20,098 bases of DNA from a virus. The notes beneath the pieces are model-generated. The model saw only the letters and a list, made by a program, of their open reading frames with translations. It was not told the DNA's origin and ran no database searches. How positions within the stretch are numbered: position 1 is the first letter of the stretch; every line of letters begins with the position of its first letter. Both the position numbers and the translations under genes were made by a program. Location: IMG/VR virus record IMGVR_UViG_3300001349_000135, positions 1 through 20,098 of that record, one strand, 5' to 3'. Positions 1 to 14,974 of this stretch are shown piece by piece.

Positions 1-3000
1 TTTGTTGCCCTGTCTCTTAAATGACCAAGGCGCATTTCTATTTCGCTCCAATGCTTGCCAAATCCATCTTCGCTAGAAAATCTACTAAACCAATCTAATG
101 CTAAATCGTTAATGTCGTTTTCATATGCAGCTTTATGCTCTGGAGAAAGAGGTCGAGAATATCCTAGATCTTCTGCTTTTTTTAAAGTGTGCATAATTTC
201 GTGGATCTTAACAAAGTTGATCCAATCTTGCGGACTGCGAATTACTCCGTCAGGCAAAGGCCGAACACCTTCAACTCTTGGGTTTAACCAAGGTTTGTCA
301 TTGTAGCTTCTCGCAAAGAAATCTTCGTCAATGTAGATTGTTCCGTTTGGCCCTTCGTCGCGTCTATAAAAAGCTGGCATATAACGACCATCTGCTGTCC
401 TGCTATTTGTAAAACCTTTTACTATTCTGGCATTGGTTTGTGGAAAGCTTACGTTCTCATTAGCCCACTTACCTAACTCAGAATTTCTAAGCTTGTTCAT
501 GGCTTCTTCAAAGCCTTTGACCCAGCTTACTCCATCAGCAGGTCGAGCAAATCTTTTAGACATTTCAATAGCTGGACCCATTCTCTCAGAATAAAGGTTC
601 ATAATTATTGCGTAATCTGTGCTGATAAAGTCATCGATGCCGTTGCCATTCGGCCCGTCTTTAAGAAGGTAACTGTTGGGAATATTAAACTGGCGATGCC
701 TACCAAATGACGGTCTGTTTGGATCACGATACGTTGCCATATCTGCTGGCTCTGCTTCTTGCAGAATAGTATCAATTAAATCGTCAGCACGTTTTGAAAC
801 TGCTTCTTCTGTTACATCAGCTTTAATCCACTCAAAGCGAGATTCTTCTGGGGCTTTTTGTATTCTTTGATTAAGTTTGTTTACTTTATCGGACGCAGCA
901 TTTCTTGCTCTGCTAAATGTTCTGTTAAGATCTGGATTAGTGTTATCTGCTTGCCGCACCGTAATTCTGTCTAATTCTGCAAGTGCTTCATCTAACAGCT
1001 TGCCTATTTCCATTTGGCCTTCTTGCCATATTTGGATCATTGGCTGTTGACGCATAAACGGCATAACTACTTGACGTTTAAAAGCCTCTCGGTTTTGCTG
1101 AATTTTGTTAATGCTGTAGACGCGAGTAAAGTAATCACCATCAGGCTCAAAATCTGCATCGTCTAATGCTCTTTGAGCTCTTTCTCTTATTTGACCCAGC
1201 CTATCTATCTCAGAAACATTTGCATGAAATACATGCTGGTCAGGCATTTCTACAAAGTTGTCTGGATCAAGTTCTGCAATCTGCTGATCTATATTTCTGA
1301 TTTGTGCAGCAAGATTTGCTTTAGTTGTAATGATGCCATGTTCTTCAGCTGCATCCCCAAAAGTTTTGTAAGTGCCGCGCAACACTTCAACCATTTCGTT
1401 TATTTCTGAAATGGGGCTAACTTCGCCAGTTATAAGTGCTTTGGAAGTAGCATCACGCCATTCTTCCATGCTCATGGCTCTTTGACCATTAGCTCTTGCT
1501 GTTCTTAGAGATTTGTTAAGCGGGACATTTGCAATAGCTGGATTGCTGTCATATCCAAGATAGCGTTCGTAAAGCTCAGTTTCTTTTCTGAGCATAGTAT
1601 CAATGTACCCTGTCCATACTCTTTTACCAGAATACACGGACGTTCCGATGTTTTGTCCACTTCCATCAGATGCTCTAAGTAACCCACCATCGCTGGCTAG
1701 TATGTCGGCTAAATCACGAACGTCAGGATGCAACGACATTCTGTGAATATATTTGTAGGGGCTATCAACCAGCTTACCCAGCATTTCCATATTAGGGCTA
1801 CTAAGGATCTTGTTGTTTTCCTGCCTGTAGCGTTCGGCTGCTGTTACTGCATCTTCTTCTGCTTCTCTTGAAATACGTTGAGCATCGTCAAAAGGAAGTT
1901 CATCCAAATCATCACTTACTTGTTTGTGATAAGGTGCTGTGTTCATGCCTTTACGGTCATACACTCTGGCATTGCTTGGATCTTTAGTATTCGCCTGGGC
2001 GCTTTTTAAATCTTCTGCTTCCTGCGCTTTTCTAGCCGCAGTCTTTTGATTAAGTTGCTCTGCTTTTTTATTAGCAAGTAACCTATTAAAAATATCTAAT
2101 TCTTTTTCGGCTTTCTTGCCTTTTTTAGCTTGTAAGCTTCCCCTAATCTGACCAGCTGCATTGTTACTGTTTGCTGCTGTTTCAGCATATTCTTCTAGCT
2201 TTGCATAACGCTGTTTGCTTATCCCTCTGGGTCGCTTAACTTCTGATACTGTTCTTGCTGCTCTTGTCTTGCGATGAATAGACGCTGCTTTGGCAAGTTC
2301 ATATTCAAGCAATTCATTATAGCTTACTTCGTCACCAAACAGTTTTGGCAATGCCTGTTTTGCTTTGACACGCGCAGATAATATTTGCTCGTTTACAACA
2401 AGTTCATCGCCCATTCTGTAAACGCCAGATGGAGACTTTGACCAATCTATTTGATCATTTGTTTGAACCATTCTTACTACTAGGCTTTGTCCGTTACCTG
2501 CATCAAAAACGCTAGTGTTTGGCTTTGTTGCAGCTATCTCCATCATCATATCATCAAGGAGATTTTTACGCATATTTCGAGCAACTAAACCGCCAATAGT
2601 TCCTACTAACATTCCAGAAAACAGTGTTGTTGCGCCAATGCGTAACATGCTTTCTTCTGGTGTAGACATAGGATCAGTGTCAGCACGATTAAGCTCAATA
2701 GCTGTTTCTGTTGCTAAACCAATTGCTGATCCACCAACAAATGAGCGAGCCGCGTTTACGCCAGTTTTCATAGAAGCTGAAACAATCATTCCAGCTGGAA
2801 GTAACATTGTTGCAAGACTATCAGGGTTTGCCATGCCACCCATAAAAGCTGAGGCGGTGTGATTGCTTACTGCGCGTCTTCTGTTTTTTGCAATGCCTTC
2901 TGCAATAACTTCTTCAAGCGCAGTGTAATGTTCTTCGTTTCTAGCTTGGTTTAAAAAACCAGCGTACTTTGTATGACCGCGATCTATTGCCGTTTGTATC

Positions 3001-3980
3001 GGATCAAACTTAGGATCTAAATCGTAATTACTTGCTTTTGGGCCTGTAATTAAATTGGTTAACAAGCTGTCGTAAAACTCGTCATTAAACGCTGATAGTC
3101 TGCCAGAACTTGCTTGCGCTCCACCGCCTTCTCCTTCGATGCGTTTATAATCAGGATCTATTCTGTTTCCCTCAGCAGCCTCTTTAAGCAAAAGCTTTTT
3201 GCTATCGTCATATGATGGGGCTGAGTAAGGAACTGGCTTAACTACGTTCGTTTCAACTTTATCTGTAGGCAAATATCTATTTGTAGAATATTGCCGTGCT
3301 GTTTTATCTGTGTTGTCTTCAACAACTTGTCCATAACCACTTGCAAGCTTGTTTGATTGTGAGCTTACTTCTGGCTCTCCTTGAGGACTTAATGCTGTTT
3401 TTATTTTATTTTCGTTGTGAGGGCTTTCTGTCTTTTGAAATGGTTGTCCATTTCCTTGAATTGCACCTAAGAAAGCAGAAACCGAAGTGCCTTCTTTGTT
3501 AGATCCAACGCCGTTGTAATAACCAGTGCCTTTAGGAACAAATGTTCTTTTGCCCTTATAAATTCTATAAGTGTCTTGCAGTACAGGAAGTGCAGCCCAT
3601 TCCATTGCAACATTGTTGCCAAACTTTTCGTCCGAGATTAGGCCCATATCCCATTTGTCCAAGCCTCTGTATTTCAGTCTGGAAAGAGCCAGCTTGTCTT
3701 GAGTTTCCTGATTAAACAAATCGCTTTGTTTAACCCCAGAAGTAACTTTGTTAACTTCTTCAAGCAGGGTTCGATAGGTCATTTGATAAACGCCAGCCGC
3801 AGTAAATTGCTGTGCTTTAGGAAGCTTAAAGTTTTCTCTTTGCTGAGCTAAAACTTCTGCAACAGTCATTTGCGTTAAAGGCTTATTGCCTCTAAATTTA
3901 GTTTGATCATTCCAAGTGTCGTAGCTATTTCGACCCTCAAGATTGCGGATCATTTCTAACAAAGGGCCTATATTTTTCAT
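1..3980 (-). CDS. Giant internal virion/ejection protein with N-terminal muramidase and HExxH metallopeptidase-like motif (gp16-like, partial)
   Basis: Open from ATG at 3980 (AGGGG 6 nt upstream) to the window edge; 1326 residues visible and the C-terminus is missing. Residues 7-133 follow the lambda R lysozyme pattern: the LEG with candidate catalytic Glu15, AAGVYQM (61-67), QDKLAL...RG (94-106), and EWAALP (127-132). A linker follows. Residues about 373-470 are hydrophobic and rich in Gly, Ala and Met, plausibly membrane-active. Residues 594-659 are Lys/Glu/Gln-rich and look like coiled coil. Near the visible end, IHEIMH (H1260, E1261, H1264) with YEND 23 residues later (E1287) looks like a zinc metallopeptidase site. 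It is last in the run TerS to gp15-like, the place of T7 gp16, the ejected protein with a peptidoglycan-cutting domain (family knowledge). The role in wall penetration is inferred; peptidase activity is a hypothesis. The Val in AAGVYQ replaces the usual Arg of AGRYQ. Confidence 0.85.
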   Translation of the reverse strand, partial: MKNIGPLLEMIRNLEGRNSYDTWNDQTKFRGNKPLTQMTVAEVLAQQRENFKLPKAQQFTAAGVYQMTYRTLLEEVNKVTSGVKQSDLFNQETQDKLALSRLKYRGLDKWDMGLISDEKFGNNVAMEWAALPVLQDTYRIYKGKRTFVPKGTGYYNGVGSNKEGTSVSAFLGAIQGNGQPFQKTESPHNENKIKTALSPQGEPEVSSQSNKLASGYGQVVEDNTDKTARQYSTNRYLPTDKVETNVVKPVPYSAPSYDDSKKLLLKEAAEGNRIDPDYKRIEGEGGGAQASSGRLSAFNDEFYDSLLTNLITGPKASNYDLDPKFDPIQTAIDRGHTKYAGFLNQARNEEHYTALEEVIAEGIAKNRRRAVSNHTASAFMGGMANPDSLATMLLPAGMIVSASMKTGVNAARSFVGGSAIGLATETAIELNRADTDPMSTPEESMLRIGATTLFSGMLVGTIGGLVARNMRKNLLDDMMMEIAATKPNTSVFDAGNGQSLVVRMVQTNDQIDWSKSPSGVYRMGDELVVNEQILSARVKAKQALPKLFGDEVSYNELLEYELAKAASIHRKTRAARTVSEVKRPRGISKQRYAKLEEYAETAANSNNAAGQIRGSLQAKKGKKAEKELDIFNRLLANKKAEQLNQKTAARKAQEAEDLKSAQANTKDPSNARVYDRKGMNTAPYHKQVSDDLDELPFDDAQRISREAEEDAVTAAERYRQENNKILSSPNMEMLGKLVDSPYKYIHRMSLHPDVRDLADILASDGGLLRASDGSGQNIGTSVYSGKRVWTGYIDTMLRKETELYERYLGYDSNPAIANVPLNKSLRTARANGQRAMSMEEWRDATSKALITGEVSPISEINEMVEVLRGTYKTFGDAAEEHGIITTKANLAAQIRNIDQQIAELDPDNFVEMPDQHVFHANVSEIDRLGQIRERAQRALDDADFEPDGDYFTRVYSINKIQQNREAFKRQVVMPFMRQQPMIQIWQEGQMEIGKLLDEALAELDRITVRQADNTNPDLNRTFSRARNAASDKVNKLNQRIQKAPEESRFEWIKADVTEEAVSKRADDLIDTILQEAEPADMATYRDPNRPSFGRHRQFNIPNSYLLKDGPNGNGIDDFISTDYAIIMNLYSERMGPAIEMSKRFARPADGVSWVKGFEEAMNKLRNSELGKWANENVSFPQTNARIVKGFTNSRTADGRYMPAFYRRDEGPNGTIYIDEDFFARSYNDKPWLNPRVEGVRPLPDGVIRSPQDWINFVKIHEIMHTLKKAEDLGYSRPLSPEHKAAYENDINDLALDWFSRFSSEDGFGKHWSEIEMRLGHLRDRAT

Positions 3981-11167: not shown

Positions 11168-11680
11168 TCACGGGTATTCCATTACGGAGCCATGTTCAGT
11201 CTTTGGGGCCGCATCTGGACAGAGCATTTCGAAACGCACATAATCCACGCCGCTAAACTCTGCTTTTTCAGGCGCTATGTCAAATCCTAGATGCAATAAC
11301 CATTTCATTCGTTTTTTTTCTGTACTGGGCAGTATATTTCCAATAACTAGATACGTCCGATTAAGATCTATAAATCTTCTGCAAAATCGTGTCATTTCTC
11401 GCCAATAAATATCTGCCAGCTTAGTTCCAAGAAGCCAAATCACGCCGCATCTAGGATCTATTGGGTGTGGAGCAATGCCTCCAAGACAAGCAATTTCGTC
11501 ATTAATCCATAGCGTCCAGCAATCATTCTGATCAAAGTCAGCCATCATTGCCATACGAATATCCGACTTAAAGCTTAATTCGTTTATGTGCATTTCTCGA
11601 ATGTCACTAGGGCGCATGTGTCGAAACAGATTTCGAAGATCGGCCCTAGTGCTGGGTAGTAATTCAACCTTGTTCAACAA
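11168..11680 (-). CDS. gp13-like internal virion protein, GNAT-like fold
   Basis: About 170 residues. The core (RADLRNLFRHMRPSDIREM near the start, then a WTLWINDEIACLGGI strand pair, an R-rich helix, and LHLGFDIAPE near the end) has the layout of gp13-type proteins, which look like degenerate N-acetyltransferases (T7 gp13 is 138 residues). T7 gp13 is needed for head assembly/core formation but is not retained in the mature virion. The reading frame opens upstream to an ATG at 11767, but that would overlap the scaffold gene by 104 bp with non-domain residues. A TTG at 11680, which gives a 17-bp overlap and places the start just before VELLPSTRADL, is preferred. No clear Shine-Dalgarno supports either, so coupling to the scaffold is likely. 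The acetyl-CoA loop is not evident, so enzymatic activity is doubtful. Confidence 0.75.
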   Translation of the reverse strand: MLNKVELLPSTRADLRNLFRHMRPSDIREMHINELSFKSDIRMAMMADFDQNDCWTLWINDEIACLGGIAPHPIDPRCGVIWLLGTKLADIYWREMTRFCRRFIDLNRTYLVIGNILPSTEKKRMKWLLHLGFDIAPEKAEFSGVDYVRFEMLCPDAAPKTEHGSVMEYP

Positions 11681-12404
11681 ATTGCTGCCATTGCTTGCGA
11701 ACCATAGCTGTATATTCCGAGTTTTCGCCAAACCGCGGATCTGATTGCAATTCCCGTATAGCTTCACGACTAAGAGGACTATTGCTTGTAGTTATTCCAT
11801 TAGTTTCTGGCGCAAATCCAGCGGATCTTGTTTTGTTCATTATAGTTTCAAAAAACTCTACGCCTTGGGCTGTCTGCATAAGCTTAGAAACTTCACCATA
11901 ATGCTTTTCGTCTACGTTTTTATTAACCCAATTGTTAACTGAGTTAATTCGAACGTCCGCGCTTTCGCCCAGTTTGCCATATTCAACTTCAAAGTTAGCT
12001 TGAGTTTTGCCATAAACGTCTTTGACTAAACTTTCAAAAGCGCTTGTCCCGACATTGTTTTGTTTGGCCCAATCACGAAACGCAGTATCTGTTACTTCAT
12101 CGGGGGCCTCAAAGCCTTCTGGATACGCATAATCCCCTGCGCTTTCTGGAACACCGACCGACTCACCGTAACTAGCCAAACTCTCGGCTTTGATTTCCTC
12201 ACGTAAGTCTTCTGTCTTTTTGCTATATGCACCATATAGCTCGTTGTACGCTTTGGCTTGGTCATCGGCAGAATTGAATTTTTCTAATAGCCAATCGGGT
12301 CTCTCCGTTGTTACTTGTGGTTCCATGCCTTCTTGCGAAGGGCTTTCCCCGCCTTGAAACATTGTTGTTGGCGCTGGTGCATTGGCAGTTGCTTCTTCAC
12401 TCAT
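11664..12404 (-). CDS. Capsid assembly scaffolding protein, gp9-like
   Basis: 246 residues, very acidic and hydrophilic. The Pro/Gln/Glu-rich N-terminus (about 1-35) is disordered. It is followed by long charged helices (about 45-80 and 125-190) and a short basic C-terminal segment (about 225-246), which in scaffolds usually binds the coat. Position between portal and coat is diagnostic in podophages (T7 gp9 is about 307 residues). It guides coat assembly around the portal and leaves the shell before DNA enters. The ATG is 9 nt after the preceding stop codon. There are no cysteines and no enzymatic motifs. Confidence 0.85.
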   Translation of the reverse strand: MSEEATANAPAPTTMFQGGESPSQEGMEPQVTTERPDWLLEKFNSADDQAKAYNELYGAYSKKTEDLREEIKAESLASYGESVGVPESAGDYAYPEGFEAPDEVTDTAFRDWAKQNNVGTSAFESLVKDVYGKTQANFEVEYGKLGESADVRINSVNNWVNKNVDEKHYGEVSKLMQTAQGVEFFETIMNKTRSAGFAPETNGITTSNSPLSREAIRELQSDPRFGENSEYTAMVRKQWQQFVEQG

Positions 12405-13163: not shown

Positions 13164-14689
13164 TACATCTGTCCTTGTTGCTGCTGCATTTGCATTTGTT
13201 GCATTTGCTCAGATTGTTCCTGCATAGATTTCATAATTTCCTGCGGGGTTTTGTAGAGTTTGGTTTCCAGACCTACTTTGTCCATTAACCAAGGATGCAA
13301 CTCGTTCATGTCATACATAGACGTTGCTGCTTGTGGCCCATACATCTGCGCTCTAATCTGAAAATCCTGCATAAGCTTTTGCACATCTCGGCCTTTTTGC
13401 GCTTGAGCTAAAGGTGACACTGCTCGGATCTGAATTGCTCTGCCGTTAACAACAGGCAGCTGAATGTCTCCGCGCTTTTCCAAGATATATAACGCTCTGC
13501 GAATGTACGGCTGGATAAACTCATAAAACACACGCGCAAAACCAGAAGATGTTCGATGAGCCAAATCAGCCATGCGTTCTGATACTTCGTATGCTGTTGC
13601 TGGCGTTTTGTTCGGATCTGAAAGCATATCGTTAAACATGGCTTTTTTAATGTTGTTTCTCTGATCTCCCAGCACAACATCTTGCATGTTAAAGTTACCT
13701 GTTGCTCCTGCAACTGGCTCTAGTCCACGCGATCCAATTTCTTTGGTAATTATAGTCCCTGGCAATAATGAAATATTGTCAGAATTAACCGTGCCTTCGT
13801 TGTCTGTTTGATAAACGCCAACAATAGACATAGCTGCGTTTTCTAAGATCATTTCGACCATCAGGTTTGTAGTTCGAATGGCGCCCATTGCATTAAGTAG
13901 TGGGCCGCGCCCCCAAGTCTCGCCAGCGGCTGTTGACCAGCGGAATGCAATGAAAGGATTAGAACCTGCGCCTTCCAGCTTTTGCTGCTGCAAGATTTCT
14001 TTGTGATTTTCACAAACAACTAAATGATAATAGCATTCATTTGGTTTTGAGTAATCCCGATAGGTGTACTCAATAATATCTAGTTCTTTGTCTTCACTAT
14101 CTTTCATATCGGAATATGTCTTGGTCATTTCTGATTGAGACATTTTAGGATAGCGAGTTGATAGGTGTTTGGCTTTTACCTTATTGCAACGATAGACGCC
14201 GCCAACCATATCATCAGAACCGCGCTCAAGGTACACGTCAGTAATAGGAATTGCGCGATGGTGAAAAGCGCTTTCTCCTGTTCCTTCCTCGAAAAGCATA
14301 ACTCCTGTCGAGATTGCCATATCGTGTAGGCTTTCAGCACTTTCTTGGGCGAAGTTACTGTTCCAAATTTCCTCAAAGACGTATTTGTTAATGTCATCAA
14401 GATCTTTGTCTACCGCTACTTTGTCTCTTGGATTTACCAGAGAGCTTGCGTCTAGTTTTACAAATTCAGTAAAGGAAGGCATTAGCCCCGCTTGCATACG
14501 CGATACAAACTCGGCAACAGCGTTGGCCCCTGTTTCGTCGTATATATCGTCTGCATTATCAATCTTTGTGGTGTGAAATCGCTTTCGCGCTGGCATCGTT
14601 AGACGCAAGCAATCGTCATAAAGACTTTCAAGCCTTTGACGTTCAGCTTTTGCAGCATCCCGAAGTTGAATAACTAATCTTGCATCCAT
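13163..14689 (-). CDS. Portal protein (head-tail connector), gp8-like
   Basis: 508 residues (T7 gp8 is 536). The family pattern is clear: an N-terminal charged helix with LRLTMPARKRF, then DIYDETGANAVAEFVSRMQAG, PSFTEFVKL, the GRGPLLNAMGAIRTTN helix (about 265-280), and a C-terminal domain with ATAYEVSERMADL. It forms the dodecameric ring through which TerL pumps DNA and to which the gp11-like ring binds. The C-terminus is a Met/Gln tract (about residues 485-508), low complexity and probably disordered or lining the tunnel barrel. The ATG is 6 nt after the preceding stop with no good ribosome site, so coupling is likely. Confidence 0.95.
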   Translation of the reverse strand: MDARLVIQLRDAAKAERQRLESLYDDCLRLTMPARKRFHTTKIDNADDIYDETGANAVAEFVSRMQAGLMPSFTEFVKLDASSLVNPRDKVAVDKDLDDINKYVFEEIWNSNFAQESAESLHDMAISTGVMLFEEGTGESAFHHRAIPITDVYLERGSDDMVGGVYRCNKVKAKHLSTRYPKMSQSEMTKTYSDMKDSEDKELDIIEYTYRDYSKPNECYYHLVVCENHKEILQQQKLEGAGSNPFIAFRWSTAAGETWGRGPLLNAMGAIRTTNLMVEMILENAAMSIVGVYQTDNEGTVNSDNISLLPGTIITKEIGSRGLEPVAGATGNFNMQDVVLGDQRNNIKKAMFNDMLSDPNKTPATAYEVSERMADLAHRTSSGFARVFYEFIQPYIRRALYILEKRGDIQLPVVNGRAIQIRAVSPLAQAQKGRDVQKLMQDFQIRAQMYGPQAATSMYDMNELHPWLMDKVGLETKLYKTPQEIMKSMQEQSEQMQQMQMQQQQGQM

Positions 14690-14695
14690 ACTAAA

Positions 14696-14974
14696 TCACG
14701 CGAAAAAAGAGCGTGGAGAAAACATGCCGCCGCCACCGCGACCAGCTGATGATCCAGCTACGTTTCCGCTTGCTGATTGCCTGCGCCGTTTGTATTCAGC
14801 TCCGCGATCAGCGATAAGTTGGTTGGAAGTTTCTGCCTGAACATCTGCTGCTTGTTTTTCTATAATTTTAGTTTGTGCAGCCATAGATGCTTGGGCTTTT
14901 TTTTGCCCTTTGTTAGTTTGGTAGGCATTTACTACTCCTACCGCCGCCATTGTCCACGCTACAGGATTACACAT
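14696..14974 (-). CDS. Short MCNP-type virion-associated protein, function unknown
   Basis: About 92 residues starting MCNPVAWTMAAVGV. The frame can begin 9 bases earlier at a GTG, but GAGGTG lies about 6 nt before the ATG at 14974, so that start is preferred. The N-terminal hydrophobic stretch is followed by an Ala/Gln/Lys helix (about residues 20-60), a basic patch and a Ser/Gly-rich tail (SSAGRGGGGMF). The Met-Cys-x-Pro start and the layout repeat those of the gp14-like protein at 6612-7232, as if this were a shortened relative. It lies between terL and portal. A minor head or ejected protein is the best guess. Confidence 0.7.
   Translation of the reverse strand: MCNPVAWTMAAVGVVNAYQTNKGQKKAQASMAAQTKIIEKQAADVQAETSNQLIADRGAEYKRRRQSASGNVAGSSAGRGGGGMFSPRSFFA

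Follow-up and report, generated by a model that had tools for sequence, protein, structure and literature searches.

Zincins are already known within the proteins that phages inject into their hosts, where they may serve either to process their own protein or to attack the host. The matter is raised here by a giant protein encoded at the left edge of the window, i.e., the whole stretch of 20,098 bases that was analysed, since an HExxH motif followed by a glutamate was noticed in it. The initial annotation had read the motif as a zinc metallopeptidase carried in the head and ejected along with a muramidase.

The window is an IMG/VR fragment of a marine bacterial virus, and end repeats are absent from it. 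It encodes a terminase, a portal, a T7-type capsid assembly protein, a major head protein and two tail proteins, and further a 206-aa protein, an 873-aa protein and the giant protein. The head protein has its closest counterpart in Pelagibacter phage Hodr (34% identity), and no relatives of the window at the DNA level were found in the phage collection. Both the 873-aa and the 206-aa proteins lack a match in PHROG and Pfam. Between the head and capsid assembly proteins lies a 199-aa protein (11168-11767, minus strand), which is acetyltransferase-like by eye only and gave no match in a Pfam search. Its ORF overlaps that of the capsid assembly protein (11664-12404) in a different frame.

The gene of the giant protein is completed by a sister contig that is 99.96% identical over 10.9 kb, and a third contig is identical to the sister contig over their 5.7 kb overlap. 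The full protein of 1753 aa (L002/L004) was thus obtained beyond the left edge, as the initial annotation had advised. Directly downstream of the ejection gene, two collagen-like (Gly-X-Y) proteins are encoded (L002:12252-13616 and 13620-14849), the first of which matches Pfam Collagen with an E-value of 2.5e-29. They are probable tail fibres.

As judged from its sequence, the giant protein is an internal virion protein at the position of T7 gp16. It matches PHROG 342, 'internal virion protein with endolysin domain', with an E-value of 1.5e-41 over aa 257-1145, in three stretches. Homologues of the scaffold include Hodr gp057 and proteins of TL-2011b and Vibrio phages. Common to the window and the T7 gp16/PHROG 342 proteins are the gene order, in which the tail proteins, two proteins and the giant protein follow one another, and an N-terminal region like a peptidoglycan hydrolase. 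The latter is indicated by tblastn of aa 3-229, which found phage 'lysozyme-like' and 'SAR endolysin transglycosylase' genes with E-values down to 6e-16; in Pfam and PDB the region has no match. Going by the gene order and the PHROG naming, the giant protein would be packaged in the head and ejected. It differs from the reviewed gp16-like homologues, which are 609-1337 aa long (PMC8954989), in its 1753 aa and in its zincin-like insert. The features are collected in Table 1.

Table 1. Position of the ejection proteins, the zincin-like insert and its key residues in the window (all on the minus strand).
Feature	Window position	Strand	Basis or remark
Large ejection protein	3..3980	-	aa 1-1326 of 1753; ORF open at left contig edge
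Lysozyme/transglycosylase-like region, aa 1-200	3381..3980	-	tblastn; phrog_18972
Site-1 stretch in window protein, aa 480-575	2256..2543	-	Hodr-type/L071-type copies sit here
Conserved scaffold, aa 290-1165, resumes from aa 1304	486..3113	-	homology and PHROG 342
Zincin-like insert, aa ~1170-1303, site 2	~72..473	-	L011-L015 lack it; alignments A4/A7; model
Trp1231	288..290	-	constant in intact copies; dead ones have His
HEIMH (HExxH), aa 1260-1264	189..203	-	kept in all 65 aligned intact copies
Glu1287 of YENDIND, predicted third zinc ligand	120..122	-	invariant; in predicted helix
Asp1292	105..107	-	invariant in intact copies, lost in dead ones
Putative gp15-like ejection protein, 873 aa	3990..6611	-	gene order
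Putative gp14-like ejection protein, 206 aa	6612..7232	-	gene order

The insert comprises about 135 residues (window ~72-473) and reaches beyond the stretch 1-400 noted earlier. The residues first reported, namely HEIMH at 1260-1264 after NFVKI and Glu1287 in YEND, 23 residues past H1264, are exact in the translation, in which aa 1255-1264 are NFVKI-HEIMH and aa 1286-1292 are YENDIND. HExxH is a short motif, and its shortness is the sole point in favour of a functionless, chance occurrence in a helical region. Against this, HEIMH is the only HExxH in the whole 1753-aa protein, for which the composition predicts just 0.019.

The zincin-like domain is discrete and has been located in some 70 further proteins of marine phages. 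The family was built stepwise: pairing with L071 (41% identity) in a two-row alignment led to further loci, and a 13-row alignment led to 80 loci. Searched with the profile of these loci, the fetched ORFs yielded 80 distinct copies. Across the 65 intact copies that were aligned, the residues W1231, G1238, F1256, H1260, E1261 and H1264 are invariant, and so are Y1286, E1287, N1288, I1290, N1291 and D1292. The domain has a signature of its own, W..P..GV.PL...FV..HExxH...YENxINDxA. The patterns used for scanning were YEN[DR]IND, YEN[RAD]IND or IYIDE-like, and the conservation of YENxIND is therefore partly built in. HExxH was absent from the patterns of both main scans and is yet kept in 65 of the 65 copies, which argues that it is more than chance. 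Likewise, L091-L094 carry YENAIND, out of reach of the YEN[DR]IND pattern, and still keep both motifs. A chance motif is thus rejected by the conservation, its probability being negligible.

The spacing from the second His to the Glu is about 15-32 residues and is greater where a further domain is nested. One such domain, of 254 aa, lies within the zincin of L144 (aa ~905-1159), between HExxH and YENAIND (YFVHYTRKQNIESLLRNGYDV...). It is ADP-ribosyltransferase-like by eye only, and Pfam gave no match for it. Shorter nested inserts are found in L168, L171 and L175-L179. Bacterial relatives of the zincin-like domain were not found in one scan of genome contigs.

The predicted structure is in line with a zincin. 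When modelled by AlphaFold together with its upstream strand, the domain reached a pLDDT of 89.4 and a pTM of 0.84; an earlier model without this N-terminal strand folded less well. The predicted order is strand-strand-strand-helix-helix(HExxH)-helix(Glu). In the model, three strands (18-21, 36-39 and 47-50) would precede the active helix, HEIMH would lie within helix 83-99, and E1287 would be placed on the next helix (113-135), each as expected of a zincin. Foldseek detected relatives among viral models, namely A0A6J5N5Q0 with an E-value of 7e-6 and four others, with a probability of 1.00. The search against PDB with both models retrieved no solved zincin, and nothing at E<=0.001. The ACE2 chains that top the PDB list of the extended model (E 0.83, prob 0.03) are no evidence of kinship.

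Profile searches, which had been proposed for finding a metallopeptidase, gave no significant match for the domain in Pfam, PHROG or PDB. The cut-off of the Pfam family MPTase-PolyVal (PF18818) was not reached; one of 13 members matched at E 0.093, and the window member gave no match. The metallopeptidase layout claimed initially thus stands as regards the conserved HExxH...E and the zincin-like order of predicted elements, while a match to a profile or a solved zincin is missing.

The lack of a zincin match in Foldseek is one point for reading the insert as a non-protease, i.e., a metal-binding domain (e.g. an alpha-KG HExxH-type hydroxylase) or an insert that stabilises the fold. HExxH is also known in non-peptidases, as has been noted for the C1 domain of the N4 vRNAP, whose activity is unproven. 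However, the insert is predicted to have three strands, then HExxH and, on the helix that follows, a Glu that never varies, which is the layout described for zincin MPTases (PMC5512222), and we regard the non-protease reading as unlikely.

A further point that bears on it comes from copies that appear to be dead. Hodr, L017-L022 and relatives carry a homologous domain (hhalign E 4e-18), mostly at aa 260-390. In these Hodr-type copies, H1260 and H1264 are replaced by K or R, W1231 by H, and D1292 by T, N or A. That W, H, H and D disappeared jointly suggests, at the level of sequence, that the four form a functional set. E1261, E1287, N1288 and N1291 are retained, so the conservation of the domain is partly structural, and a non-catalytic use in Hodr-type phages, which keep most of the fold signature, would favour the non-protease reading. 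The seven dead copies form one clade in the domain tree, which points to a single loss event. In Pelagibacter phage EXVC031P Hodr, gp057 (WDQ27578) shares a homologous scaffold and the zincin-like domain with the window protein; it differs in the place of the domain (aa 263-363), in the loss of both His and in lacking an N-terminal lysozyme-like region. The expectation that homologues keep the zinc residues is thus borne out by the 65 of 65 aligned intact copies and fails for the Hodr-type ones, and the nearest scaffold homologues, 57-58% identical, are without the whole domain.

L011-L015 align on both flanks of the insert (34-58% identical in the best segments) and lack it. Opposite window aa ~1170-1303, L011 has only the short linker AERKNFKGSDAQFLNHW. 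Junctions were mapped on the insert-free L011 protein. The window copy occupies site 2, between L011 aa 977 and 992, a point that is empty in Hodr and in the TL-2011b/Vibrio-type proteins. At site 3, the C-side junction falls at L011 aa 1206-1208 in 74 proteins and the N-side junction at aa 1196-1201 in 69 of these 74, as counted by hand from the junction table. The marine contigs with this site (e.g. L091-L095 and L106-L172) thus carry the same domain about 220 scaffold residues further downstream. Site 1, with a less precise junction, lies in the N-terminal part and is used in L071, L097, L099, L100, L102 and L103. When the corresponding window stretch (aa 480-575) was compared with the zincin domain by profile, in search of a degenerate copy, an E-value of 0.054 over 20 columns was obtained. 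In L098, the domain is part of an apparently unrelated 1789-aa protein.

Between the window domain and the site-3 domains the identity amounts to 43-53%, while the scaffolds are just 27-36% identical. Among the site-3 proteins, the C-part of the scaffold is 49-85% identical and the domains are 36-77% identical. In the domain tree, the window copy falls among the site-3 copies (92/92, not starred; on a long branch). The simplest reading of the sequences, though not a proven one, is that the domain was transferred into a new site. Its other insertion places suggest that it is exchangeable cargo and no permanent component of the injection machine. Site 2 can also hold other material: L016 (43% identity) has a longer insert there (aa ~960-1190; L016:8551-9246) with its own HETIH motif, for which neither homology to the window zincin nor a Pfam match was detected. 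Another HExxH motif, LMHEASHWYLDRL, is seen at aa 875 of L033, a scaffold homologue of 1802 aa.

These observations also bear on autoprocessing, by which the zincin would cleave the giant protein that carries it, either inside the head or once ejected, and free segments of it. This has been proposed as a main role of polyvalent-protein MPTases, with the processing of P1 DdrB cited (PMC5512222). However, L011-L015 share the scaffold but are devoid of the domain, and their DNA, as far as it was examined, contains no other ORF with HExxH. Moreover, the domain is found at three scaffold positions, with no common linker or cut site recognised, and the N4 vRNAP, although it has an MPTase, is packaged without being cleaved (PMC5512222). 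Autoprocessing is less likely than optional cargo, though it is the most probable of the alternatives. As an essential role, the processing of ejection proteins that was put forward initially is unlikely, as close homologues lack the domain; the same relatives, together with the three possible places, make any obligatory processing unlikely.

The initial annotation had also offered the cutting of peptide cross-links in the cell wall, here in concert with the N-terminal muramidase. A muramidase-like region is indeed part of the same polypeptide, yet the insert is situated about 1,000 residues away from it. In T7 gp16, the N-terminal transglycosylase is periplasmic while the C-terminal part is presumed cytoplasmic (PMC8954989). 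Furthermore, a small Peptidase_M15_4-like protein is encoded downstream in L003 (6453-6914; Pfam E 2.7e-4, below the curated cut-off), which appears to belong to the same phage as the window. This separate candidate endolysin weakens the case for a partner of the muramidase and makes cross-link cutting quite improbable.

The reading that we consider probable, with reasonable confidence, is that of a swappable zincin-type (gluzincin-like, HExxH + Glu) metallopeptidase, carried as optional cargo in a gp16-like ejection protein. In the model, H1260, H1264 and E1287 would bind Zn, with E1261 as the general base. The domain would be packaged and injected along with the ejection protein and may act as infection begins, in the periplasm or the cytoplasm of the host, where it would cut either a host protein or the ejected protein itself. 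An accessory role, host-facing or self-releasing, is favoured over obligatory processing. More tentatively, the gp16-like ejection protein of marine podophages may have a few fixed loops that serve as cargo ports, at which enzymatic domains would be gained, lost and exchanged between phages, to be injected as early host-directed effectors; the window zincin, the HETIH insert of L016 and the nested domain of L144 would be examples.

The pairing of a peptidase with a muramidase, thought unusual at first, has been published already: Iyer et al. (2017, PMC5512222) document lysozyme together with zincin MPTase domains in polyvalent proteins of phages. The polyvalent MPTases, including N4 vRNAP C1 and P1 DdrB, resemble the model of the window domain in the three-stranded sheet, the HExxH helix and the Glu helix. 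They too reside at varied places within giant injected phage proteins, some being fused with lysozyme. The window domain differs from them in having its own signature and no significant match to PF18818, and no homology beyond the motif was found between its family and the N4 C1 domain. As far as these tools show, the following appear to be new: a domain family that Pfam and PHROGs do not recognise, the three sites at which it is inserted into a single ejection scaffold, and matched empty and dead relatives. The insertion sites mark loops of the ejection protein that tolerate foreign domains. With its three sites, matched empty relatives and a naturally dead lineage, the family allows the role of zincins in injected phage proteins to be approached cleanly, both by comparison and by experiment.
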